Positions 1,044-16,353 of a stretch of DNA of 55,855 nt are shown one piece after another. Source of the DNA: an uncultured Ruminococcus sp. (GTDB lineage: Bacteria; Bacillota; Clostridia; Lachnospirales; Lachnospiraceae). A program made the translations under genes and the position numbers. The stretch lies in assembly GCA_904418845.1 (NCBI GenBank), contig CAJFQC010000020.1, positions 1 to 55,855 on the forward strand, written 5' to 3'. The notes below the pieces were generated by a model. The model ran no database searches and was not told the origin of the DNA. It saw only the letters and a program-made list of their open reading frames with translations. The first letter of the stretch is position 1, and every line of letters starts with the position of its first letter.

Positions 1044-3218
1044 TCAAACTCCGCGCATCGTAAGCTGTATCCTCTTCCTTTTCAAATCCACGCTCATAAC
1101 TTTGACATCCACGATGTCCCCCACGCTGACTGCTTCCAGCGGATGCTTGATATAACGGTCTGTGATCTGGGAGATATGCACCAGTCCGTCCTGATGAACG
1201 CCGATATCCACGAAGACACCGAAGTCGATAACATTCCTCACTGTGCCTTTGAGCATCATTCCCTCTTTTAAATCCTTCATCTCCAGGACATCTGTGCGCA
1301 GAATAGGCTTTGGCATCTCTTCCCTTGGGTCGCGCGCCGGCTTCTCTAATTCCTTCACGATATCCTGAAGTGTGATCTCTCCCACGTCCAGTTCCTCTGC
1401 CAACTTTTTATAGTCCTTGATCGTAAGGGAAAGTCCGGTCAGATTATGATTCGCCACATCTTCCGTAGTATATCCCTGCTTTTTCAGAAGTTTTTCCGCA
1501 GCATCATAGCTCTCCGGGTGGACTCCCGTCGCGTCCAGCGCGTTCCTTCCGCCCGTGATGCGCATAAATCCCGCGCACTGCTCATATGCTTTCGGGCCGA
1601 GCTTCGGCACTTTCAGAAGCTCGCGCCTGTCAGTGAATCTGCCGTTGTTCTCACGGTATGCCACGATGTTCTTTGCCACCGCGGCGCTGATGCCGGAGAT
1701 ATAGGACAATAGTGGTGCCGATGCAGTATTTAGATCCACTCCTACTTTATTTACACAGTCCTCCACAACACCGTTTAAGGACTCCCCTAACTTCTTTTGA
1801 TTCATGTCATGCTGGTACTGTCCCACTCCGATAGATTTCGGGTCGATCTTCACCAGTTCAGCCAGGGGATCCTGAAGTCTGCGCGCAATGGATGCAGCGC
1901 TTCTCTGTCCCACATCAAACTTCGGGAACTCCTCTCCCGCAAGCTTGCTCGCCGAATAAACGGACGCTCCCGCCTCATTGACAATCACATACTGCACCTT
2001 TTCCTCCGGAATCTCTTTGAGCAGCTCGACAATGAACTGCTCAGACTCTCTTGATGCCGTGCCATTTCCCAGAGAGATGAGAGAAATATGATACTTCGGG
2101 ATAATCTTTTTGAGCAGGTCTTTGCTGGCCTTTATCTTTTGGGGAGTAGTAGGCGCGGTCGGATAAATGACCGTCGTACCGATGACCTTTCCTGTCGGAT
2201 CAACCACCGCCAGCTTACATCCGGTACGAAATGCCGGGTCCCATCCCAACACTACTTTTCCGGCAATCGGCGGCTGCATAAGAAGCTGATGCAGATTTTT
2301 CCCGAACACCTCAATAGCGCCGTCCTCCGCACGCTCTGTCAGTTCATTTCTGATCTCTCTTTCAATCGCCGGAGCAATAAGTCTATGATAACTGTCTGCC
2401 ACAGTTTCTTCTAACACAGGTGTTGTATACGGGTTATCCCTGTGAATCGTCTGTTTTTCCAAATACCTCAGGATATCCTCTTCGGGCGCCTCTACCTTCA
2501 CAGTCAGAAAGTTTTCTTTCTCGCCCCTGTTCAGGGCAAGGATACGGTGCCCCGCCAGTCTGGACACCGCTTCCTCGAACGCATAGTACATCTCATAGAC
2601 AGATTCAGCTTCCGCATCCTTTGCCACAGAGATGATTTTCCCCTTCTGCATGGTCATTTTACGTATCCTGCTGCGGTAGTCCGCATTATCCGAGATGCTC
2701 TCCGCAATGATATCGAGCGCCCCCTGTATGGCCTCGTGCGCCGTCTTTACTTCCTTTTCCTCTGAAACGCCTTCCTTGCCTGTTGAAATGTATTCCTTCG
2801 CCGTCTCTTCAAGCGGCTCTTTTGTCTGCTGGAGCAGAATGAACGCCGCAAAAGGTTCCAGTCCCTTCTCCTTGGCAATCGTCGCCCTTGTGCGTCGTTT
2901 CGGACGGTACGGACGGTACAGATCCTCCACCGCGACCTGCGTCTCAGCCGCAAGGATCTGCGCCTTTAGCTCCTCTGTCATCTTCCCCTGTTCTTCAATA
3001 CTGGAAATTACCTGCTCCTTTTTCTCCTCCAGGTTGCGCAGATACATCAAGCGCTCATGAAGCTTTCTAAGTTGCTCGTCATTGAGCGATCCGGTCGCTT
3101 CTTTTCTGTATCTTGCAATAAAAGGGATCGTATTTCCCTCATCTATCAGATTCACCGCCGCATCTGTCTGCCAGCGTTTTACACTAAGTTCTTCTGTCAG
3201 CTTTTGGTTGATGTCCAT
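1044..3218 (-). CDS. tex: Tex family transcription accessory/RNA-binding protein
   Basis: About 724 aa, full length for Tex. Order: N-terminal helical Tex region (SLNDEQLRKLHERL; PYRPKRRTRATIAKEKGLEP), a YqgF-like RNase H fold (VVLGWDPAFRTGCKLAVVD), tandem helix-hairpin-helix motifs (TASAPLLSYISGISAAVA; LLKVPKLGPKAYEQCAGF) and a C-terminal S1 domain (DLKEGMMLKGTVRNVIDFG). Tex proteins are cytosolic nucleic-acid-binding proteins related to eukaryotic Spt6, linked to transcription and stress tolerance; the bacterial mechanism is not fully settled. The start at 3218 (MDINQKL) matches the family, so I left out a six-residue upstream extension. It stands alone, converging on the HAD gene. Nothing is missing from the domain set. 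Confidence 0.93.
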   Translation of the reverse strand: MDINQKLTEELSVKRWQTDAAVNLIDEGNTIPFIARYRKEATGSLNDEQLRKLHERLMYLRNLEEKKEQVISSIEEQGKMTEELKAQILAAETQVAVEDLYRPYRPKRRTRATIAKEKGLEPFAAFILLQQTKEPLEETAKEYISTGKEGVSEEKEVKTAHEAIQGALDIIAESISDNADYRSRIRKMTMQKGKIISVAKDAEAESVYEMYYAFEEAVSRLAGHRILALNRGEKENFLTVKVEAPEEDILRYLEKQTIHRDNPYTTPVLEETVADSYHRLIAPAIEREIRNELTERAEDGAIEVFGKNLHQLLMQPPIAGKVVLGWDPAFRTGCKLAVVDPTGKVIGTTVIYPTAPTTPQKIKASKDLLKKIIPKYHISLISLGNGTASRESEQFIVELLKEIPEEKVQYVIVNEAGASVYSASKLAGEEFPKFDVGQRSAASIARRLQDPLAELVKIDPKSIGVGQYQHDMNQKKLGESLNGVVEDCVNKVGVDLNTASAPLLSYISGISAAVAKNIVAYRENNGRFTDRRELLKVPKLGPKAYEQCAGFMRITGGRNALDATGVHPESYDAAEKLLKKQGYTTEDVANHNLTGLSLTIKDYKKLAEELDVGEITLQDIVKELEKPARDPREEMPKPILRTDVLEMKDLKEGMMLKGTVRNVIDFGVFVDIGVHQDGLVHISQITDRYIKHPLEAVSVGDIVDVKVMSVDLKRKRIQLTMRGV

Positions 3219-3356
3219 AACCCATATTCCTCTCATTGATTTTGCACTGTACGCAATTCATTATACCAAAACACCTCTACAAACACCAGATTGATTTCCA
3301 AAACACTTTTCACAGGCTTTCACTTTACATTTTTCAATAAATCTTCAACAAACCAT

Positions 3357-3385
3357 TGACAGGATCGAAAAAGTATTATATAATT
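3357..3385 (+). promoter_or_regulatory. Sigma-A promoter of tRNA-Arg
   Basis: A perfect -35 TTGACA at 3357-3362, a 17-bp spacer and a perfect -10 TATAAT at 3380-3385. Transcription should start near 3392, giving a leader of about 28 nt before the mature tRNA. Consensus boxes fit a highly expressed stable RNA gene. Confidence 0.85.
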
Positions 3386-3419
3386 GTTTTCGCTGTGAAC
3401 GAAACAGCAGATATATCAT

Positions 3420-3493
3420 GTGCGATTAGCTCAGCTGGATAGAGCGTCTGGCTACGGACCAGAAGGTCGGGAGTTCGAATCTTCTATCGCACG
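3420..3493 (+). tRNA. tRNA-Arg (anticodon ACG)
   Basis: A full cloverleaf folds: acceptor GTGCGAT pairs with ATCGCAC, a D-arm with AGCTGGAT loop, anticodon stem TCTGG/CCAGA around loop CTACGGA (anticodon ACG) and a T-arm with TTCGAAT loop. The discriminator is G and CCA is not encoded. ACG is read as ICG after deamination, decoding CGU, CGC and CGA. The T-stem carries two G-U pairs. Confidence 0.95.
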
Positions 3494-3499
3494 TACAAA

Positions 3500-3526
3500 A
3501 AGATGTCGCAATGCGGCGTCTTTTTT
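3500..3526 (+). terminator. Terminator of tRNA-Arg
   Basis: A 10-bp inverted repeat (3500-3509 with 3513-3522) with G-U pairs is followed directly by a T run. It lies six bases after the tRNA. Confidence 0.8.
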
Positions 3527-3616
3527 GTTGTAACGGAAATTTTCTTACAATTATTTCCTCTGTTATTGGTTTGCTTTTATCAATGATGAGAATAGATTAA
3601 AGCCCGATTGCACAGC

Positions 3617-3651
3617 AAGCCCGGTGGACGGTCAGTGACCGCACCGGGCTT
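3617..3651. terminator. Strong hairpin, probable terminator beyond trpS
   Basis: A 10-bp perfect stem (3617-3626 with 3642-3651) is extended by an inner CGGTCA/TGACCG stem. It sits 18 nt beyond the trpS stop codon. T-rich sequence is weak on the minus side, so the termination role is inferred from position and stability. Confidence 0.55.
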
Positions 3652-3668
3652 GGATTATTTTCTATTAT

Positions 3669-4757
3669 TTATTCTTCCGTGAACTTCTCCGTCTGCATTT
3701 TAATAAATTCCTCATCTTCAAAGTAATTGATCTTCATAGCTGCCTTCACTTCACTTAGCGTCTGCGCCGCCACAGACTCTGCCTTCTCACTTCCCTTTTT
3801 AAGGATCTCATAGACAGCAGGGATATCCTTCTGGAATTCTTTTCTGCGGTTTCTGATCGGTTCAAGCTCCGCCTGAAGCACGTTGTTCAGGAAACGCTTC
3901 ACCTTCATATCTCCCAGCCCGCCTCTCTTATAGTGATCCTTAAGCTCATCAAGATTCTCATACTCCGGCAGGAACTCCGGGAAGTATTCCGGTCTGCAAA
4001 ACGCGTCCAGATAAGTAAATACTGTGTTTCCTTCTAATTTTCCGGGGTCTTCGATACGGATATGGGTCGGATCAGTAAACATACTGAACACTTTCTTCTT
4101 GATATCCTCCGGCTCCTCGGAAAGATAGATACAATTGCCAAGCGACTTACTCATCTTTGACTTTCCGTCAATACCCGGCAGACGCAGACACGCCGCGTTG
4201 TCGGGAAGAAGAATCTTGGGATCTACAAGCGTCTCCCCGTAAACAGAGTTGAATTTGTGCACAATCTCCTTCGTCTGCTCGATCATCGGCATCTGGTCCT
4301 CACCCACAGGGACAGTCGTTGCTTTAAATGCCGTGATATCCGCCGCCTGACTGATGGGATATGTGAAAAATCCCACCGGAATGCTGGCCTCAAAATTGCG
4401 CATCTGAATCTCAGATTTTACCGTAGGGTTGCGCTGGAGCCTGGATACTGTCACAAGATTCATATAGTAGAAAGAGAGTTCGCACAGCTCCGGTATCTGG
4501 GACTGAATGAACAGAGTAGATTTCTCCGGATCCAGCCCGCATGCCAGATAGTCCAGCGCCACTTCAATGATATTCCGGCGCACTTTCTCAGGGTTATCTG
4601 AATTATCGGTCAGCGCCTGCGCGTCTGCGATCATTATAAAAATATCATCAAAATCTCCTGTATTCTGAAGCTCTACCCGTCGTTTCAACGACCCCACATA
4701 GTGACCCACATGGAGTCTTCCTGTAGGGCGGTCCCCGGTAAGCATGATCTTCTTCAT
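3669..4757 (-). CDS. trpS: Tryptophan--tRNA ligase
   Basis: A 362-aa class I aminoacyl-tRNA synthetase that charges tRNA-Trp. The HIGH signature appears as HVGH at residues 16-19 and KMSKS at 201-205; both bind [20 protein letters not shown] is the expected N-terminal tryptophan-enzyme block and PVGEDQ lies in the catalytic fold. The sequence is of the longer class starting LTGDRPTG, often seen in Clostridia. A good site (GGAGGAAAAAGAG) precedes the ATG. No T-box leader is evident: the gap to the upstream PAP2 gene is only 61 nt, so the two may be cotranscribed. Confidence 0.95.
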
Positions 4758-4818
4758 CTCTCTTTTTCCTCCTGATACCTCTGTTTATACTATATGACTC
4801 TGCATATTCTATACATTT

Positions 4819-5505
4819 CTATTTATTCTGCGCAAGTTCCCTCTTCTGCTTCGCGTACTGTAATGCGCTCCTCTTTTGCGGCGCATATACAAACTGATAC
4901 AGCACATAAGCCATGAACGCCGCTCCTATTCCGTCAAGGACAGAATGCTGTTTCAAGAACACGGTAGCAAGGATGATGAGCGCCGCAAGGATATAAACTC
5001 CCACGCACACTACTCTGTGCTTCTTAAGCGCCTCACTTTCATGCACAGCGATACAAACACCCAGTGAATTGAACACATGAAGGCTGGGGAATACATTGGT
5101 ACACGTATCTGCCCGGTACAGCATCCGCACCATGTCAACGAAGATATTATCGCTCTCAAACACAACAGGCCTTAAGTCCTGTCCATTGGGAAAGACCGTG
5201 GATATAATAAGAAATATAGTCATCCCCGTAAACATGAATTTTGCCATTCTGTAAAATCCCGGTACATCCGTAAAAAAGAAATACAGAAATGCCGCCGCAA
5301 TAAAAGCGAACCACATCAAATATGGAACAATAAAATACTCAATAAACGGAAGATGCTGGTCAAATCCAGTCTGGATCACATAATAATTTGTAGTTACATG
5401 CTTTTCCAGATACAAAAACCACGGCATATAAACAAGGATATATAAGAACACCCACGCATGTTTGTATCGTTTCAGTAATTCTGTGAACTTGTTTTTCTGC
5501 TTCAT
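4819..5505 (-). CDS. PAP2-family membrane phosphatase
   Basis: A 228-aa integral membrane protein with about six hydrophobic segments. PSLHVFNSLG provides the PSxxH half of the PAP2 phosphatase signature and LKQHSVLDGIGA the SxxxxxxHxxxD-like half with the second catalytic His and Asp. The family dephosphorylates phosphatidic acid, undecaprenyl or inositol-phosphate lipids at the outer membrane face; the substrate cannot be told. It resembles the inositol-phosphorylceramide-synthase-like branch by length. It precedes trpS by 61 nt, and a promoter is visible upstream. A lipid-phosphate role fits the nearby lipid kinase and uppP, but those are separate transcription units. Confidence 0.82.
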   Translation of the reverse strand: MKQKNKFTELLKRYKHAWVFLYILVYMPWFLYLEKHVTTNYYVIQTGFDQHLPFIEYFIVPYLMWFAFIAAAFLYFFFTDVPGFYRMAKFMFTGMTIFLIISTVFPNGQDLRPVVFESDNIFVDMVRMLYRADTCTNVFPSLHVFNSLGVCIAVHESEALKKHRVVCVGVYILAALIILATVFLKQHSVLDGIGAAFMAYVLYQFVYAPQKRSALQYAKQKRELAQNK

Positions 5506-5594
5506 AATGATAATGCCCCTTTTTAACTACGGTCTCGTCTTTCTTGTCTTATCCCCCGTACGTTGACTGTGCCTCATTCCTTTTATCAGTCCCC

Positions 5595-5623
5595 ATTGTA
5601 TCACGATTTAAAATACACAACAA
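5595..5623 (-). promoter_or_regulatory. Promoter of PAP2 gene
   Basis: Read on the minus strand: -35 TTGTTG, 17-bp spacer, -10 TACAAT. It lies about 90 bp upstream of the start codon. Nothing else was recognised in the 192-bp gap to the neighbouring lipid kinase. Confidence 0.5.
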
Positions 5624-5697
5624 CTATGTTCACAAAACCTTTATTAAATCTTTTATTTCCTAAACTTTTCAGATACATTTCAAATTAACACATCCCG

Positions 5698-6620
5698 CTA
5701 TCCTGCAATCACATTGAGTTTTTCCTCGAGAACAGTGACTTCAATCTCCTTTCTCAAGAAGCCGGGCTCTCCGTCCGTATGAAGAGGAAGTGCGGTCTCC
5801 GCTTCCGTCTTCAGGCTTGCGCACCGAAGGATCGAAACACCTTTAAATCCGACATGCTTTCCACCAAATGCCAGAGGAAGCAGAAAAAGTATCTTCGGCA
5901 TGGACAATCCATGGGCTGCCACCACATCAAGCAGACCATCCTCAGGCGATGCTTCGGGACTGAACTTAAACCCGCCGCCCTCATACGGCAGATTCATGAA
6001 TGCCACGAAATACGTCTTATCGAGCACCTTCATTTCCCCATCCGGCAGCGTCAATGTCAGGCGCACCGGCCTGTCTTTTATGAGCCGGTCCAGCGCCACT
6101 GCCGCATAGCTTAATTTCCCCAATCCGATCTTATTAAGCAGAACTTTCAGGCGGGAAACACATACCTCATGACAGACTGCCGCATCAAAACCCATCCCTG
6201 CGCTCACAAGAAAACGCTTTGACTTCCTGCCGGAGAGGACTCCGATATCCATATGTATAATTTTCTGCGGCCGCAGGATGATGGCAAGCGCTTCTTTGGG
6301 ATCACCAGGGAGCCCAAGCCCTCTTGCAAAATCATTACTCGATCCAATCGGTATATACCCAAGTGTTGTCTTTTCCGGAAAGCATATTCCATTTACCGTC
6401 TCATTGACTGTCCCGTCACCGCCGAGTACAACGATCGTGTCCCGGCGCCATCTGAGGTAAGGGCTTCAGCAATCTCTCCGGCGTGTCCACGTCTTCTGGT
6501 CATATGCACATGGTAGGCTACGCGATCTTTTTTCAGTTCCGGCTCCAGCATCCTCCAGATCATTTCCCCCATTCCAGAGCGGGCTTTTGGATTTACAATA
6601 AAATCATATTCTGTATCCAT
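5698..6620 (-). pseudogene. Diacylglycerol/lipid kinase (YegS/BmrU family), frameshifted
   Basis: Three overlapping pieces form one lipid-kinase protein of about 307 aa. The N-terminal part starts at 6620 with FIVNPKARSGMGE. Then the frame shifts near 6441-6446, and the second frame gives TIVVLGGDGTVNE, the glycine-rich GGDGTxNE nucleotide-binding motif. IPIGSSNDFARGLGLPGDP follows, then the C-terminal domain DIGVLSGRKSKRFLVSAGMGFDA. Restoring one base in the GC-rich run (GATGGCGCCGGGACACG on the minus strand) joins the frames. Such enzymes phosphorylate diacylglycerol or similar lipids at the membrane. The TetR gene upstream ends only four bases before this start, so the pair is an operon. 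The shift may be a true mutation or a sequencing error; everything else is well conserved. Confidence 0.85.
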
Positions 6621-6624
6621 GGTT

Positions 6625-7269
6625 TTAGTCCCCCTTATCTCCGGGACAGAGCACAGAATCCAGATATTTCCCCAGCGAACGGCTCATGTTTCCCTCAAAA
6701 TCAGCCTCTCCGTGTTTGATGCACCATTCAAAGACGTTTCCAATAACGATCATACGGATATCTGTCGTAAACTCGTCAATCTGTACGTCAAGACGCACGA
6801 CGCCTGCCTCAACCGCTTTCTCCACATACGTCTGCACTGTGACGATCGGATATGGCCTCTCTGTGCGGATAGACGCATTGAGCGCCTGATTCTTTGTATC
6901 GTAATACTCTGCCATGAACTCAACTCCCAGTTCACGGCAGTACCGCACATAATTCATATATACCTGAATGATACCTTTCTTCACCCCCGCCACACTGTCC
7001 GGGAGCTCCAAAAGATCCGGATCAATCTGCGGCTGTTCCTCAATATAGTAAGAGAGTAAATCATCTTTCGTTTTGAAATGATGATAAAAGCTGCCGTTGG
7101 AAACCCCTGCCTCCTCGCAGATATTCTTGATAGACAATTCTTCGTACCCTTTTTTCTGCAGGATACGCTTTGCCGCCTGAAATATCTTCTCCCTTGTCAC
7201 ACGAGATTTCTGCTGTTGTCTGGATATGTGTATCTGTTCTTTCATACTGATGTTTTGCTCCTGTTTCAC
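6625..7269 (-). CDS. TetR/AcrR family transcriptional regulator
   Basis: A 214-aa one-component regulator. The N-terminal HTH covers about residues 24-70: REKIFQAAKRILQKKGYEEL, then ICEEAGVSNGSFYHHFKTKDDL, a classic TetR recognition helix ending in YHHF. The remaining two thirds is a helical ligand-binding and dimerisation domain with no recognisable ligand signature. The start could be 7269 or the Met nine codons later. Its stop is followed within four bases by the lipid-kinase ATG, whose AAGGGGGA site lies inside this gene, so translation is probably coupled. A good promoter and palindromic operator candidates precede it, suggesting autoregulation of a lipid-related operon. Confidence 0.88.
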   Translation of the reverse strand: MKQEQNISMKEQIHISRQQQKSRVTREKIFQAAKRILQKKGYEELSIKNICEEAGVSNGSFYHHFKTKDDLLSYYIEEQPQIDPDLLELPDSVAGVKKGIIQVYMNYVRYCRELGVEFMAEYYDTKNQALNASIRTERPYPIVTVQTYVEKAVEAGVVRLDVQIDEFTTDIRMIVIGNVFEWCIKHGEADFEGNMSRSLGKYLDSVLCPGDKGD

Positions 7270-7281
7270 TTACCGCTTGGA

Positions 7282-7308
7282 CGGTATAATCCCCCATACC
7301 GGGGTATG
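7282..7308. promoter_or_regulatory. Candidate TetR operators
   Basis: Two overlapping palindromes: CATACC-GG-GGTATG at 7295-7308, and CGGTAT at 7282-7287 with ATACCG at 7296-7301. They lie in the leader between the promoter and the TetR start. Position and symmetry suggest an autoregulatory operator; binding is inference. Confidence 0.4.
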
Positions 7309-7349
7309 CCGCGACACTGCTACGAGCCCAGCCCGAATCCGCTCGTACT

Positions 7350-7378
7350 ATTATACCACGGCTCTGTCTTTGTTTCAA
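7350..7378 (-). promoter_or_regulatory. Promoter of TetR-lipid kinase operon
   Basis: On the minus strand: TTGAAA, 17-bp spacer, perfect TATAAT. It begins only a few bases after the terminator of the upstream sfsA-mutY gene. Confidence 0.8.
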
Positions 7379-7424: not shown

Positions 7425-9185
7425 CTATTTCGGACTGTATGCTTCAAACGCCGACGGCATTGGATAGTGTTCTTTTAGCTCCTTCAGACCGGCAAATATC
7501 ACGTCCGGCTGTTCGCCTCCTGCGCCGGCTTCTTTCATATGCCTCTCAAGTTCATCCACCACGATCTCATATCCGATCATATGCCATTCCACATGACTGA
7601 ATACATGCTTCGCACTCCCCAGACGTTTCACCCGGACAGGCATAAGTCCCACCGTCTTAGCATACTCGATAACTTCTGTCTGCTTAAGATGCCCTTCCCT
7701 GCCCGGGAACTCATACATCCCCGCAAGCAGCCCGGTGTCAGGGCGCTTGCGGATGGCCGTCTTATCGTTGTCGCGGAAGATCAGGATGGTACGTTTCTCG
7801 ATCCTTCTCCCTTTTGCTTTCTTTTTTACCGGAATTTCCCTCTCTCTTCCCTGTGCATGAGCAAGGCAAAGGTGATTCACAGGACACTCCCCACACTTTG
7901 GCTCCCCGTTTGGCACACAGATCAGAGCACCCAGCTCGATGAGGCTCTGATTAAAATCGCCCGCGCGATCCTTAGGTATCACCTCTTCTACAACGGCCTC
8001 GATCTTTGTCTTTGTCCCTGCTTTGGCAATATCGTCCTCATCTGCTGTGATCCGAGTCACTACACGCAGTACATTGCCATCCACCGCAGGCTTGGGAATA
8101 CCGTATGCGAAAGAGCTGACTGCTCCTGCCGTGTAGCTGCCGATTCCTTTAAGCGTCAGAATCTCCTCATAAGTTTCCGGAAATACTCCTCCGTGCTCAG
8201 TCATGATCTGACATGCCGCCTCTTTTAAGTTCCTTGCTCTATTGTAATAGCCTAAACCCTCCCACAGTTTGAGCAGACGATCCTCCGAAACTTCCGCCAG
8301 CGCTTTCACATCCGGCAGTTCACTCAGGAACCTTTCGTAATAAGGCTTCACCGCCTCCACTCTCGTCTGCTGGAGCATAATCTCCGAGATCCACACCCGG
8401 TAAGCATCCATTCGTCTCCGCCACGGCAGATCTCTTTTATTGGCGGCAAACCACTCTACAAGAAAAGGTACGCACTCTTTCAGCCGTGGGCTTTGCAGCA
8501 CTACCTCCACAGGCTCGTCCGCCCAAATGCTCTCCGGTGTCACTTGACAGTCGCAGGCAAGAATCTTCACCCCCGCTGCCTGTGCTTTCTTCAAGGTTGC
8601 CGCGAATTCCGGATGAGTGTCAACATTCGGCGTAAAATACCGCACATCCTTCATCTGGATGACAAAGAACACATAGGCCTCATACCCTTCCTTCTTCGCC
8701 TGTACCAGTTCTTCCAAATGCTTCACAGCCCGGCCGCTGGGCGCATCCGGAAAACGGCACACCCCGTTTTCTTCCAGAGTAACTCCCTTTACCTCAATAA
8801 AGATCTTGCGGTCCCCTGCCTCTACATACAGGTCAAATCTGGAATTTCCGTAAGTCGTTTCCGGCTTTATCAATGTTACATCAGAAAAGAAATTCCCCTG
8901 CTCAATCCATTCCCGAACAACCTTGTTTGGAATCTGTGAATCCATATTTATCAGACGGCATCCATGCTCCACAGGTTTTTCCACTGCAATCAGATCCCAT
9001 CCTGTCTTTCTGCCCGGACTGTCACTCTCCTGAACATAGATGACTGCTCCTGGGCGCAGGAGCTCCGCGCACCGCCCTGTATTCTTTACGTGAATCGTCT
9101 CTTTTTTCCCGTTTAACTCTGCATAGGCAATAAACCGGTTCGGCCGTTCTATGAAAACTGCTTTTTGTATCCGTTCATATCTCAT
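7425..9185 (-). CDS. SfsA-MutY fusion: nuclease plus A/G-specific adenine glycosylase
   Basis: One unbroken 586-aa frame joins two normally separate proteins. Residues 1-230 are SfsA: OB-like N-terminus (FIERPNRFIAYAELNG, VKNTGRCAELL) and a PD-(D/E)xK-like core with RFD (Asp118) and FIEVKG (Glu131, Lys133). Residues 235-586 are MutY: catalytic Glu268 in SEIMLQQTRV, HhH LKGIGSYTAGA, Asp369 in VDGNVLRV, four Fe-S cysteines (423, 431, 434, 440; spacing C-x7-C-x2-C-x5-C) and a C-terminal NUDIX-like domain (GLLAGMYEFPG) that reads 8-oxoG. MutY removes adenine opposite 8-oxoG; SfsA is a DNA/RNA nuclease. The first Fe-S spacing is one longer than in E. coli. The joint has no long linker. Both halves look catalytically intact, so this seems a functional fusion. 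Confidence 0.93.
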   Translation of the reverse strand: MRYERIQKAVFIERPNRFIAYAELNGKKETIHVKNTGRCAELLRPGAVIYVQESDSPGRKTGWDLIAVEKPVEHGCRLINMDSQIPNKVVREWIEQGNFFSDVTLIKPETTYGNSRFDLYVEAGDRKIFIEVKGVTLEENGVCRFPDAPSGRAVKHLEELVQAKKEGYEAYVFFVIQMKDVRYFTPNVDTHPEFAATLKKAQAAGVKILACDCQVTPESIWADEPVEVVLQSPRLKECVPFLVEWFAANKRDLPWRRRMDAYRVWISEIMLQQTRVEAVKPYYERFLSELPDVKALAEVSEDRLLKLWEGLGYYNRARNLKEAACQIMTEHGGVFPETYEEILTLKGIGSYTAGAVSSFAYGIPKPAVDGNVLRVVTRITADEDDIAKAGTKTKIEAVVEEVIPKDRAGDFNQSLIELGALICVPNGEPKCGECPVNHLCLAHAQGREREIPVKKKAKGRRIEKRTILIFRDNDKTAIRKRPDTGLLAGMYEFPGREGHLKQTEVIEYAKTVGLMPVRVKRLGSAKHVFSHVEWHMIGYEIVVDELERHMKEAGAGGEQPDVIFAGLKELKEHYPMPSAFEAYSPK

Positions 9186-9326: not shown

Positions 9327-10151
9327 TTACAGTATCTTAGACAAGAACTCTTTCAGCCTCTCGTCCTTCGGGTTTTCGAAGAACTCTTTCGGAGCCGCTT
9401 CCTCGAGAATCTGTCCGTCATCCATGAAGAGAACTCTGGAAGCCACCTCCCGGGCAAATCCCATCTCATGCGTGACAACCACCATGGTCATCCCCTCCTG
9501 CGCAAGCTCTTTCATCAGCTCTAGCACTTCTCCTACCATCTCCGGGTCTAGAGCCGAAGTCGGTTCATCAAAAAGGATCACATCCGGGTTCATTGCAAGC
9601 GAGCGGATGATCGCCACTCTCTGCTTCTGTCCGCCTGACAGTGTGGACGGATAGACGTCCGCCTTGTCATCAAGCCCGATACGTTTCAAAAGGTCAAGAG
9701 CCTGCTGTTTTGCCTCGCTTTTGATCTGATCCTTTGTAGTAGTGATGCGGATTAATTCCTGCTTCTCTCTGCGGAAAAGATTCTTAAATCTTGTCCGCCT
9801 GTTCTGGCTTTTCGCCTTTTTCAGATCCTTGCAGCGCAGATACGCCGGAGCCATCATAACGTTCTGAAGAACTGTCTTGTTATTAAACAGATTAAAATGC
9901 TGGAATACCATTCCCATGTGACGGCGATGGAGGTTGATATCTACTCTCATGTCCGCAATATCCACGCCTTTGAAAATAATACTTCCCGACGTGGGGTCTT
10001 CCATACAATTCAAGCACCTAAGGAAGGTACTTTTCCCTGATCCCGACGGGCCTAACACAGCGACAATATCCCCTTTGTTGATCGTGATGCTGATGCCCTT
10101 TAAAATTTCGAGATTTCCAAAGCTTTTTCTAAGATCAATTACGTCTATCAC
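9327..10151 (-). CDS. Polar amino-acid ABC transporter, ATP-binding protein
   Basis: A 274-aa ATPase of the GlnQ/ArtP/HisP group that powers amino-acid import. Walker [11 protein letters not shown]-loop VFQHFNLF, signature LSGGQKQR, Walker [13 protein letters not shown] and switch His in VVTHEMGF are all present. Family members are about 240-250 aa; the extra length is a basic insertion of about 32 residues after the Q-loop region ([10 protein letters not shown] ... SEAKQQAL), rich in Arg and Lys. The start overlaps the permease end by 17 nt, so the genes are co-translated. It is the last gene of the binding protein-permease-ATPase operon. Confidence 0.93.
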
Positions 10152-10845
10152 TCTTCCTCAGGCTCCCTTCTAACAATTTGATAAGCAATGTAATGATCAG
10201 CACAAGAACAATGTAGATCATAGCCATCACAAGGTACGGCACCATGTACTCGTAACTGTTGCTCGCAATATAACTAAATGCAACGTAGAGGTCGGCCGCC
10301 CCGACAAAACTTACTACTGATGTTTCCTTTATAAGCGCGATGAACTCATTTCCCAGTGTCGGCAGGATATTCTTCACAGCCTGCGGGATCACGATCTTCG
10401 CCATGCTTGCGCCAAAACTCAGTCCCACAGCCCGGCCTGCTTCCATCTGTCCCGGATCAACGGACTGGATACCGCTGCGCATGATCTCGGATATATAGGC
10501 GCCACTGTTTAGTCCGAATACAATAACGGACACCTGTACCGATGTGATATTCCATCCCCAGAGCGGAAAAAGCACAAAATGAAATACAAGAAGCTGTACC
10601 ACCATAGGCGTCCCGCGGAACAGCCCTACATAGAAACTGCAGAAGCCGTTGAGCACTCTCGGAAGTATCTTATACTTAGGCAGCACTCTCACTGTCGCTA
10701 TAAGAGTACCGATGAGGATACCTATGAGCAGGCCGCACACCGCGATAAAAAGCGTATTTTTTAAACCTTCAACTACTTTCACATAGCCGTTTGCGTCTAT
10801 GAATATCTCTATAAACCTATCAATTCTCTGACCAAAATTACCCAT
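10135..10845 (-). CDS. Polar amino-acid ABC transporter, permease
   Basis: A 236-aa inner-membrane permease of the HisM/GlnP class with about five hydrophobic segments. The EAA loop that contacts the ATPase is [20 protein letters not shown], and [17 protein letters not shown] is the characteristic conserved stretch that follows. [19 protein letters not shown] is the first membrane helix. It probably works as a homodimer, since only one permease gene is present. The ribosome binding site lies inside a hairpin arm (10847-10873), which suggests control of permease level relative to the more abundant binding protein upstream. Confidence 0.92.
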
Positions 10846-10948: not shown

Positions 10949-11827
10949 TTACTGCATCTCGTTGATTGCTGCTGTGATCGCTGCTGCCGGAGCTGCGTCG
11001 ATGATCACATAGTTCACCTTGCCGTTGAGCATATCCTGAACTGCAAGAGAACCGCTCTTGTATGTCACACATTCAGCCGGAAGTCCCGGGAATCCCCATT
11101 CCTCATCACCATTTACATAGTAGTTTCCTGTTGTGCCCTGCTGTACGCCGATCTTGTCGTCTCCTGTCAGCTCACCTAACTTCGCCGCAACCTCATCGGC
11201 AGTCGTGCAGTCGTCAAATGTAGTGTCATCACTCGGAACAACAAGTCTCTGAGAAGCAGAGTAGTAAGATTCAGAGAATGTCACATACTCCTCTCTCTCC
11301 TCATTGATCGTAAGACCTGCCATTGCGATATCGCATTTATGCTGTCCCACAGAGAGGCAGACTGCGTCGAAATCCATATTCTGAATCACAAGTTCCTGTC
11401 CGAGTTCCTCAGCCAGCAGAGCCGCGATCTCCATATCAATTCCCAGATAGGAGTTGCCCTCTGTGTATTCAAACGGCTCGAATGCCGCGTTTGTCGCAAC
11501 AACAAGCTGATCCTTGGATGTGTCGAGCTCTGCGGACTCTACTGCCGTCGGCTCTCCGTTTCCGAAATATTTATCGCAGATCTCGTCAAGAGTTCCGTCC
11601 TCTTTGATCTTATTGATAAATGTATTCACCTGCTCAAGAAGCTCCGGCTGATCCTGGTCAATACCGAATGCATACTGCTCGTCTGTCAGATCGATCTCAA
11701 TGACCTTCGCTGTCTTTGCGCTGCTGCCCGTATCGCTTCCGCCCGCGTCACTTCCCTTGCCTCCGCATCCTGCCGCCAGACCCGCAACAAGCGTGGCACA
11801 CAGAGCCGCTGCTAATAACTTCTTCAT
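10949..11827 (-). CDS. Amino-acid ABC transporter substrate-binding lipoprotein, circularly permuted
   Basis: A 292-aa lipoprotein: signal peptide with lipobox LAAGC (Cys21), then a low-complexity Gly/Ser/Asp linker. Residues 41-89 (from KVIEIDLTDEQYAFG through KIKEDGTLDEICDKYFG) match what is normally the last 50 residues of SBP family 3. A linker (90-106) leads to QLVVATNAAFEPFEY, normally the first strand after the signal peptide, then GIDMEIAALLAEELG, MDFDAV, DIAMAGLTINEERE, IGVQQGTTGNYY and VNYVIIDAAPAAAI. The protein stops exactly where the C-terminal segment would normally begin. All parts of the fold are present but in rotated order. It should capture a polar amino acid outside the membrane and deliver it to the permease encoded downstream. 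The start has a GGAGG site. Confidence 0.93.
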   Translation of the reverse strand: MKKLLAAALCATLVAGLAAGCGGKGSDAGGSDTGSSAKTAKVIEIDLTDEQYAFGIDQDQPELLEQVNTFINKIKEDGTLDEICDKYFGNGEPTAVESAELDTSKDQLVVATNAAFEPFEYTEGNSYLGIDMEIAALLAEELGQELVIQNMDFDAVCLSVGQHKCDIAMAGLTINEEREEYVTFSESYYSASQRLVVPSDDTTFDDCTTADEVAAKLGELTGDDKIGVQQGTTGNYYVNGDEEWGFPGLPAECVTYKSGSLAVQDMLNGKVNYVIIDAAPAAAITAAINEMQ

Positions 11828-15133: not shown

Positions 15134-16353
15134 ATGATAAATGCAAAGTATGTGGACAAACTCGACCATAACATAAAGGTATTTTATTTGGCCACAATCC
15201 TAAAAGGAATGGCTATTACCATGCCGCATGCAGTACTAACTTTAATTTTTTTAGCAAAAGGAATTTCATATGCGCAAATAGCTTCTATTCAGGCATTTTA
15301 CTCTATTGCGATGGTTATTTTTGAATTTCCTTCTGGCGTGTTGGCTGACAAATACAGAAAAAAAACAATTTTCATATTATCAAATATCATTATGTTATGC
15401 AGCTATGCAATTGTATTAATATTTGATTCTTTTTATATGCTTGCGTTCGCGTGGTTTATTTATGGGATTTCAAATGCATTCGAAACAGGGACTATTGATG
15501 CTCACATTGTTATTTCCATAAAAAGGACATATGATGCCGATAAGGTACATTCAAAACTTGAAAAGTTTATAGGAACGGGAAATAGTTTAGCGAGTATTGC
15601 ATCTATTGTTGGTGCAGGATTAGGATTTTTTTTATACCAGTATATTAGTGTAAATATTTACTATGCTATGCTGATATTGATGTTTATGAGTGGCCTGCTT
15701 GTTTTATTTCAATACAAGTATGTAGATTATAAACACAATCAGAAAAATATTCGGCTGTCAAACTTAGTTTGTAATACAATAAAGGAACTGAGGAATAGTG
15801 CAGAACTCCGATGGATCATTATAGCTTTCGGCATGTTACAAATGTATATACAAATTCATTTTCAGATGTGGCAATCATTTTTTTGGATTTAGGCCATTCT
15901 GATCAAATTTTTTTGGGATTGTATTTATTATTTCAAGTTCTTACAATTGTAGTGTATAAGATACCCGTTTTAAAATGGTTTACTAAATATCTTCCGATTA
16001 TTTCTGTCTTAGGAATTGTATCTGTAATAGTAATGTATTTTATAACAAATAAATGGGCTATAGTTTTATTTTACTGTATACCCGTAGTAATTGTTTTTAT
16101 GTTTAAGTATTTTCTGGATCTTGCATACAATACAAAGGTAAAAGAAGACAATATCTCTGCATTAACATCATTGATATCAACTATTATGAGAGGATTTGGT
16201 GCAGCTACATTATTAGTTGCCAGTGTAATTATCAAATTTTTTACATTGAAAATATTGTATCTAATATTTCCAATTATTTCTATTGGAGCAGCAGCGTTGC
16301 TCAGTAGAAAAATTATTAAGTCCGTTTTTCATAATATTTCAAAGGTGAGATAG
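15134..16353 (+). pseudogene. MFS transporter, frameshifted in a poly-T tract
   Basis: The first frame (15134-15892, 252 aa) has six or seven helices and the MFS loop motif GVLADKYRKK. It ends in a false stop right after a run of seven T at 15878-15884. The next frame continues with FLDLGHSDQIFLGLYLLF and five more helices to 16353. Adding one T would give an unbroken protein of about 406 aa. The family exports small molecules, often drugs, and the substrate is unknown. The gene is much more AT-rich than its neighbours, suggesting horizontal acquisition. The poly-T break could be a mutation, phase-variable slippage or a read error; low-level slippage could still make the protein. The site GAGG lies 9 nt before the ATG. 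Confidence 0.85.

Follow-up and report, generated by a model that had tools for sequence, protein, structure and literature searches.

Most comparisons of natural circular permutants span such large evolutionary distances that causes and effects are hard to separate. A gene in the window (the whole stretch of 55,855 nt analyzed here, from an uncultured Ruminococcus sp.) raises the question of whether its product is a family-3 binding protein (SBP_bac_3) with rotated segments, how such a rotation arose, and whether the rotated protein would work. An earlier note on this DNA had described a circularly permuted family-3 binding protein, and this description was backed by profiles, homologues, selection, and predicted structure. 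In our view, the gene very probably codes for a true circular permutant among the binding proteins of amino-acid-type ABC importers, with the flytrap fold; this assessment includes the predicted function and the origin by duplication.

Segment order of the window protein

Three segments were distinguished, i.e., N (the start of lobe 1), L (lobe 2), and B (the usual C-terminal segment), so that the canonical order is N-L-B. Segment B, which comprises the last strand of lobe 2, the second hinge, and the last helices of lobe 1, forms the C-terminus of canonical proteins. In the window protein it precedes N (Table 1).

Table 1. Features of the permuted gene and its operon in the window
Feature	Residues	Position	Strand	Remarks
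Circularly permuted SBP_bac_3 lipoprotein gene	292 aa	10949..11827	-	signal peptide - B - N - L
Signal peptide and lipobox	1-21	11765..11827	-	Cys21
Moved segment B	41-89	11561..11707	-	profiles, PDB alignment, AlphaFold2
New B-N linker	90-106	11510..11560	-	joins the former C-terminus with the former N-terminus
Segment N	107-197	11237..11509	-	early lobe 1 and first hinge; contains T173 and R178
Segment L	198-292	10952..11236	-	lobe 2 through its last helix; contains D277; new C-terminus
BPD_transp_1 permease		10135..10845	-	same operon
ABC ATPase		9327..10151	-	same operon

The whole protein scored 113.3 bits against the Pfam profile SBP_bac_3 (PF00497; curated cut-off 26.4). The earlier note had identified residues 41-89 as the usual C-terminal segment and residues 107-292 as the remainder, and had suggested that both be aligned to the profile separately. 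Both exceeded the cut-off by themselves: residues 41-89 matched profile positions 99-131 with 31.4 bits, and residues 107-292 matched from position 1 with 85.7 bits. On the solved AncQR chain 4zv1, residues 107-284 aligned with residues 11-174 and residues 41-89 with residues 184-232, which are the C-terminus of the chain. Segment HMMs generated from 38 canonical N-L-B relatives matched the window protein once each in the order B (42-87, 50.5 bits, 46 of 47 positions), N (108-197, 117 bits), and L (225-284, 57 bits); the 38 relatives came from window-seeded profiles, and the independent tests are therefore the Pfam profile and the PDB chain. None of 197 shuffled proteins was matched by the segment HMMs at the threshold used for calling the order. 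The limits given in the earlier note were correct, the strand being the only detail that it lacked, and the breakpoint is clean, as the protein ends where the moved segment would start.

The reading frame is open, and the lipobox (..LAAGC) ends at Cys21, a column that is invariant in a 57-row alignment. Every segment is present once and is rotated relative to the canonical homologue, with the order B-N-L instead of N-L-B. Judged from its sequence, the window protein is a permuted variant of SBP_bac_3 and not a canonical member. A PF00497 search of the window genome yielded five matches, two of them on the window gene. In the proteins with the strongest other matches (L001 and L002) N precedes B, i.e., in the canonical sense, and the L profile gave no match.

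Permuted and canonical orthologues in a single genus

In the genus g63, the gene was present in 56 of 59 genomes, and the permuted form in 16 of the 59. These 16 genes matched the permuted query over its full length, and the other 40 only from residue 70-125 onward, as canonical genes do. The order was read directly at 30 fetched loci and yielded 16 B-N-L and 14 N-L-B genes, to which the canonical L142 from an earlier sample was added, and the other 26 genes were judged by match span. In the protein tree the permuted genes formed a single clade (support 95/86), which was nested among canonical genes. The adjoining permeases did not sort by the order of the binding protein (4 changes, at least 3 of them forced), in a tree whose rows were stop-to-stop open reading frames possibly carrying extra N-termini. 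The median dN/dS values of the 16 permuted genes were 0.058 (N), 0.078 (L), and 0.075 (B), and those of the 15 canonical genes were 0.091, 0.132, and 0.179, respectively.

Comparison of the DNA of the canonical locus L136 with that of the permuted locus L203 revealed that the upstream regions were collinear (1-2396 and 2306-4690), that N-L corresponded with 81% identity (2434-2970 and 4890-5414), and that the permease and ATPase genes followed downstream (3162-5076 and 5444-7360). The 150-bp block encoding B occupies positions 2976-3125 in L136 and positions 4691-4840 in L203, right after the signal-peptide region. The same was found for L204, and the permuted loci L223 and L224, which have shorter flanks, agreed. 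Two genes upstream of the gene in L136 are common to L203 and L204. What is seen in g63 is an in-place rotation of one orthologue, with a block of about 150 bp transferred from the 3′ end to the 5′ end. With permuted and canonical orthologues at one locus, conserved flanks, and a shared permease type, this genus offers natural pairs for the analysis of folding, ligand closure, and delivery.

Origin of the rotation

The earlier note had proposed a tandem duplication followed by trimming. An in-frame tandem duplication of N-L-B, followed by the loss of the first N-L and of the last B, would indeed yield the observed order, and the tandem (N-L-B-N-L-B) and one-and-a-half forms present among the relatives fit this part of the proposal. 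It is weakened by the fact that no duplication intermediate was found in the clade of the window protein. In addition, several N segments of database proteins of the orders L-B-N-L-B and N-L-B-N resemble mosaics of canonical and L-B-N genes, so that the one-and-a-half forms may be recombinants or metagenome chimaeras. The 394-aa L-B-N-L-B form was not found as a stand-alone gene spanning the query among the matches listed for the families f14 (70 genomes) and f21 (16). In f14, three proteins of about 1150 aa spanned this query among the matches listed, as judged by span and not by segment order. One-and-a-half proteins on database contigs (P0175-P0201 and P0241) have the orders L-B-N-L-B, N-L-B-N, and B-N-L-B-N, and some of them are apparent mosaics of canonical and permuted paralogues.

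The main alternative is that the block of about 150 bp was relocated directly, by cut-and-paste or template switching, without duplication or trimming. It fits the DNA equally well, as L136 differs from L203 and L204 by one moved block of this size plus a changed linker, with flanks that are collinear up to the block, and a B-N-L-B intermediate was not seen among the relatives; the tandem and one-and-a-half relatives, several of which look like recombinants, are what duplication would predict instead. The linker preceding N carries the motif F-[TSK]-T-[IV] in all 16 permuted and in 10 of 15 canonical g63 proteins. This conservation does not favour duplication, because relocation would also keep the linker. 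As the conserved linker is neutral between the two routes, we rated relocation as quite possible, somewhat short of an even chance. Neither the linker nor the flanks separate the two routes, and duplication with subsequent trimming is the origin that we propose, with less certainty than the permutation itself.

Recurrence of permutation among the relatives

A second permutation type with the order L-B-N was found among the relatives. Binding domains of this type also occur, in one to three copies, in one chain with a permease or with a permease and an ATPase (L190:2653-5382, L191:1263-4715, L131:1206-4205, and L129:2133-3743).

A careful tree was calculated from the N, L, and B columns whatever their order in the protein. 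Its 83 rows comprised 34 canonical, 28 B-N-L, and 21 L-B-N proteins. The clade of the window protein (17 rows, support 100/100) stood apart on a long branch and had no close canonical sister. A second B-N-L clade (99/82) grouped with a single canonical protein (100/95), and the third B-N-L group, a pair, lay within a canonical group of one genus (99/89). AU tests rejected a single clade of all B-N-L rows (p-AU 8.2e-6), the joining of the second and third B-N-L groups (p-AU 0.002), and the grouping of all L-B-N rows (p-AU 6.7e-4); one clade per permutation type was thereby ruled out. In a quick tree with 147 rows, the three B-N-L groups were again separate, and the L-B-N rows were split further. 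These results suggest that permutation arose several times in the relatives, once inside a single genus.

Could one ancient permutation per type, followed by many reversals to the canonical order, replace these repeated gains? Parsimony required at least seven changes between permuted and canonical proteins in the 83-row tree, at least five of them forced by starred branches, and it counts changes without direction. Moreover, canonical rows are nested in L-B-N groups (L198 in the 83-row tree; L197 in the quick tree, omitted from the careful one), so that reversals may have occurred. Nevertheless, reversals as the general explanation are unlikely, as the permuted proteins of g63 are one clade nested among canonical ones, a single clade was rejected for each type, and the compared groups have different B-N linkers.

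Both orders are probably tolerated by permeases of the same kind, so that rotations would have recurred in Clostridia, with one breakpoint for B-N-L and another for L-B-N. Tentatively, and as a possibility rather than a probability, the family-3 binding proteins of Clostridia may be a hot spot of recurrent permutation, with at least three B-N-L events and at least two L-B-N events, for which two loops of lobe 2 would be preferred. The benefit would be that lobe 2 rather than lobe 1 is tied to the membrane or directly to the permease, which would alter docking or the local concentration at the transporter, and this trend would end in fused permuted importers (L-B-N-permease, L-B-N-permease-ATPase, and (L-B-N)3-permease).

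Predicted fold and lipid tether

The AlphaFold2 model of the window protein had a mean pLDDT of 87.4 and a pTM of 0.75. The blocks across residues 41-90 reached pLDDT values of 86-98, and the model places strands and helices at the sites where B is expected to contribute them. Foldseek and VIA-align, which were used for searches against the PDB, follow the chain order, and a rotated chain cannot be superposed by them. In 40 of the 50 listed VIA-align rows, the alignment began at model residue 101-108, and in the other 10 at residue 58-62; the 40 rows leave B unmatched, which is expected for a permutant and is no proof of packing in cis. A profile of the B-N-L family matched 285 solved chains, and among the 60 listed the best stretch spanned B and N only in GlnPQ SBD1-SBD2 (6h30), where the match crosses the border between two tandem domains. 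The longest in-order alignment among the 50 listed rows was that of PfVFT1 (5jkq), with 205 residues over model residues 58-292, a hint that a flytrap protein of Plasmodium may have this order as well.

The chain is predicted to fold as the usual two-lobed flytrap, in which B would pack in cis on N as lobe 1 via the linker of 17 residues. A polar amino acid would be bound between the lobes, and closure would occur about two intact hinge strands. Both ends of the chain would belong to lobe 2, with the lipidated N-terminus leading into its last strand and the C-terminus being free; lobe 1 would then form an unbroken insertion within lobe 2, opposite to the arrangement in canonical proteins. The earlier note had expected a rotation of the hinge with possible effects on closure or delivery. 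This was not quite right: both breakpoint types lie within lobe 2, according to the lobe limits of GlnBP, so that both hinge strands are continuous and uncut, and it is the tether that shifts to lobe 2. Most likely, the window gene encodes an ordinary amino-acid binding protein whose lipid tether extends from lobe 2 rather than from lobe 1. This suggests that the attachment lobe of the binding protein of an ABC importer is evolutionarily switchable, and the breakpoints are naturally tested permutation sites for flytrap biosensors. The lipobox pattern was present in 108 of 111 B-N-L, 14 of 15 L-B-N, and 20 of 24 canonical proteins; both orders thus look lipidated, and tethering alone does not tell them apart.

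Packing of B in trans, which would lead to a domain-swapped dimer or chain rather than to a cis-closed monomer, has a precedent in the canonical relative TmArgBP, which swaps its C-terminal helix, a part of B, between subunits (excerpted text of PMC4022495). For the window protein it is unlikely, as a linker of 17 residues should be able to close in cis and the monomer model is confident across B, although a one-chain AlphaFold2 prediction cannot rule out swapping.

Conservation, selection, and operon

The earlier note had proposed a search for the same order in related genomes. One scan of GTDB species genomes yielded 188 relative loci, the best 80 of which were kept, including records labelled as Ruminococcus torques ATCC 27756, Coprococcus catus, Faecalicatena contorta, Blautia sp., and Eubacterium ruminantium. 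The B-N-L gene was present in all 80 of these loci, which stem from isolates and MAGs. Next downstream, permease and ATPase genes were both detected in 72 cases, an ATPase gene alone in six, and neither in one, and in one the gene was fused in frame to the permease gene. In this fusion (L082:4968-6593), a window-type B-N-L protein and its own permease share one frame of 542 aa; it stems from a single MAG and may be due to a lost stop codon. In a large protein database, the best 120 of 7979 matches, which represent the near neighbourhood, were all B-N-L. The B-N linker was 16-25 residues long in 111 B-N-L proteins, with a median of 17.

Within the window clade (80 genes), the median pairwise dN/dS was 0.056 in segment N, 0.126 in segment L, and 0.077 in the moved segment B (934, 1525, and 805 pairs, respectively), calculated only for pairs with a dS of 0.05-2 and at a mean dS of 1.3-1.5, i.e., near saturation. 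All three segments, including the moved B, are under purifying selection. The window protein has the ligand-site residues of SBP_bac_3, T173, R178, and D277, which correspond to the Thr, Arg, and Asp contacts of the alpha-amino acid in GlnBP. Among the 35 canonical rows, the common letter occurred at these positions in 34, 35, and 35, and among the 106 permuted rows in 98, 105, and 106, respectively. An assembly artefact, a frameshift, or a decaying copy, conceivable in a 51-contig draft genome in which contigs might be mis-joined, has practically no chance and was ruled out by the shared order in independent isolates and MAGs, the dN/dS values far under 1 in every segment, the open frame, and the intact lipobox and operon.

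The permease and ATPase genes lie 3′ of the window gene on the same strand, the ordinary layout of importers for polar amino acids, and the ligand would be passed to this adjacent permease/ATPase. To identify the substrate from a riboswitch or T-box, the window was searched with Rfam at gathering scores, which yielded only two tRNAs. No NCBIfam model scored above its cut-off with the window protein. From selection, operon, and ligand-site conservation, we infer that the permuted protein probably works. The results also suggest that the rotation is masked in gut Lachnospiraceae and relatives by annotation at the family level, with one Pfam hit and the name 'transporter substrate-binding domain-containing protein'.

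Elsewhere in the window, positions 7425-9185 (-) encode an in-frame fusion of SfsA (N-terminal OB and nuclease-like domains) with a MutY-like adenine glycosylase (HhH-GPD and NUDIX) of 586 aa. At positions 15134-16353 (+), an MFS transporter is apparently split into two overlapping frames (252 and 180 aa) with an MFS_1 match only in the first half, possibly by a frameshift.

Comparison with known systems

The earlier note knew of no description of such a protein. This holds for the SBP_bac_3 family, for which no permuted member was found described in the PMC literature, subscription papers being mostly outside this scope; no paper was found there that combined 'circular permut' with 'amino acid ABC transporter'. 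The OpuA paper PMC2861598 and the PfVFT paper PMC13199436 do not mention permutation, and in the EgtU paper PMC9732360 'permuted' is applied to GFP only. It does not hold for other groups of binding proteins, for which natural permutants have been published (excerpts of PMC4990184 and PMC2395249).

With the canonical SBP_bac_3 proteins (GlnH, HisJ, ArgBP, and the SBDs of GlnPQ), the window protein shares the sequence family, the Gram-positive lipoprotein anchor, the ligand-site residues, and the operon with permease and ATPase genes; the canonical proteins have the order N-L-B and a tether at lobe 1, in contrast to B-N-L and the predicted tether at lobe 2. TpMglB-2 (Tp0684), a 'Type Ic' glucose-binding lipoprotein, is likewise a naturally permuted and tethered binding protein, which binds its ligand and changes its conformation, and its authors discuss tethering as a potential explanation of the permuted topology (excerpted text of PMC4990184). 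However, it is a sugar-binding protein of Type I/cluster B with another breakpoint, a fourth hinge crossing, and poorly conserved permuted parts, according to the same excerpts. As the sequence family of the window protein is SBP_bac_3, a Type Ic assignment was rejected. No canonical orthologue pair from the same genus was found for TpMglB-2 in the excerpted text of PMC4990184, whereas g63 provides one.

The glycine-betaine binding proteins OpuAC and ProX are related by a permutation that was recognized by structure with CPSARST; they belong to another family, the pairs have less than 24% identity, and the cut differs from that in the window protein (excerpted text of PMC2395249). The OpuAC-type order (lobe 2 - B - lobe 1N) was rejected for the window protein, which is B-N-L; the L-B-N relatives do align with OpuAC. 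PfVFT1 (5jkq), the malaria flytrap, has 9% identity to the window protein. The DNA methyltransferases and swaposins are unrelated proteins for which the same model of permutation by duplication has been put forward, and for the methyltransferases the intermediates are termed extensively documented (excerpted text of PMC3320104). Taken together, the window protein represents a known phenomenon that is apparently undescribed in SBP_bac_3 and that comes here with an unusually close natural control.
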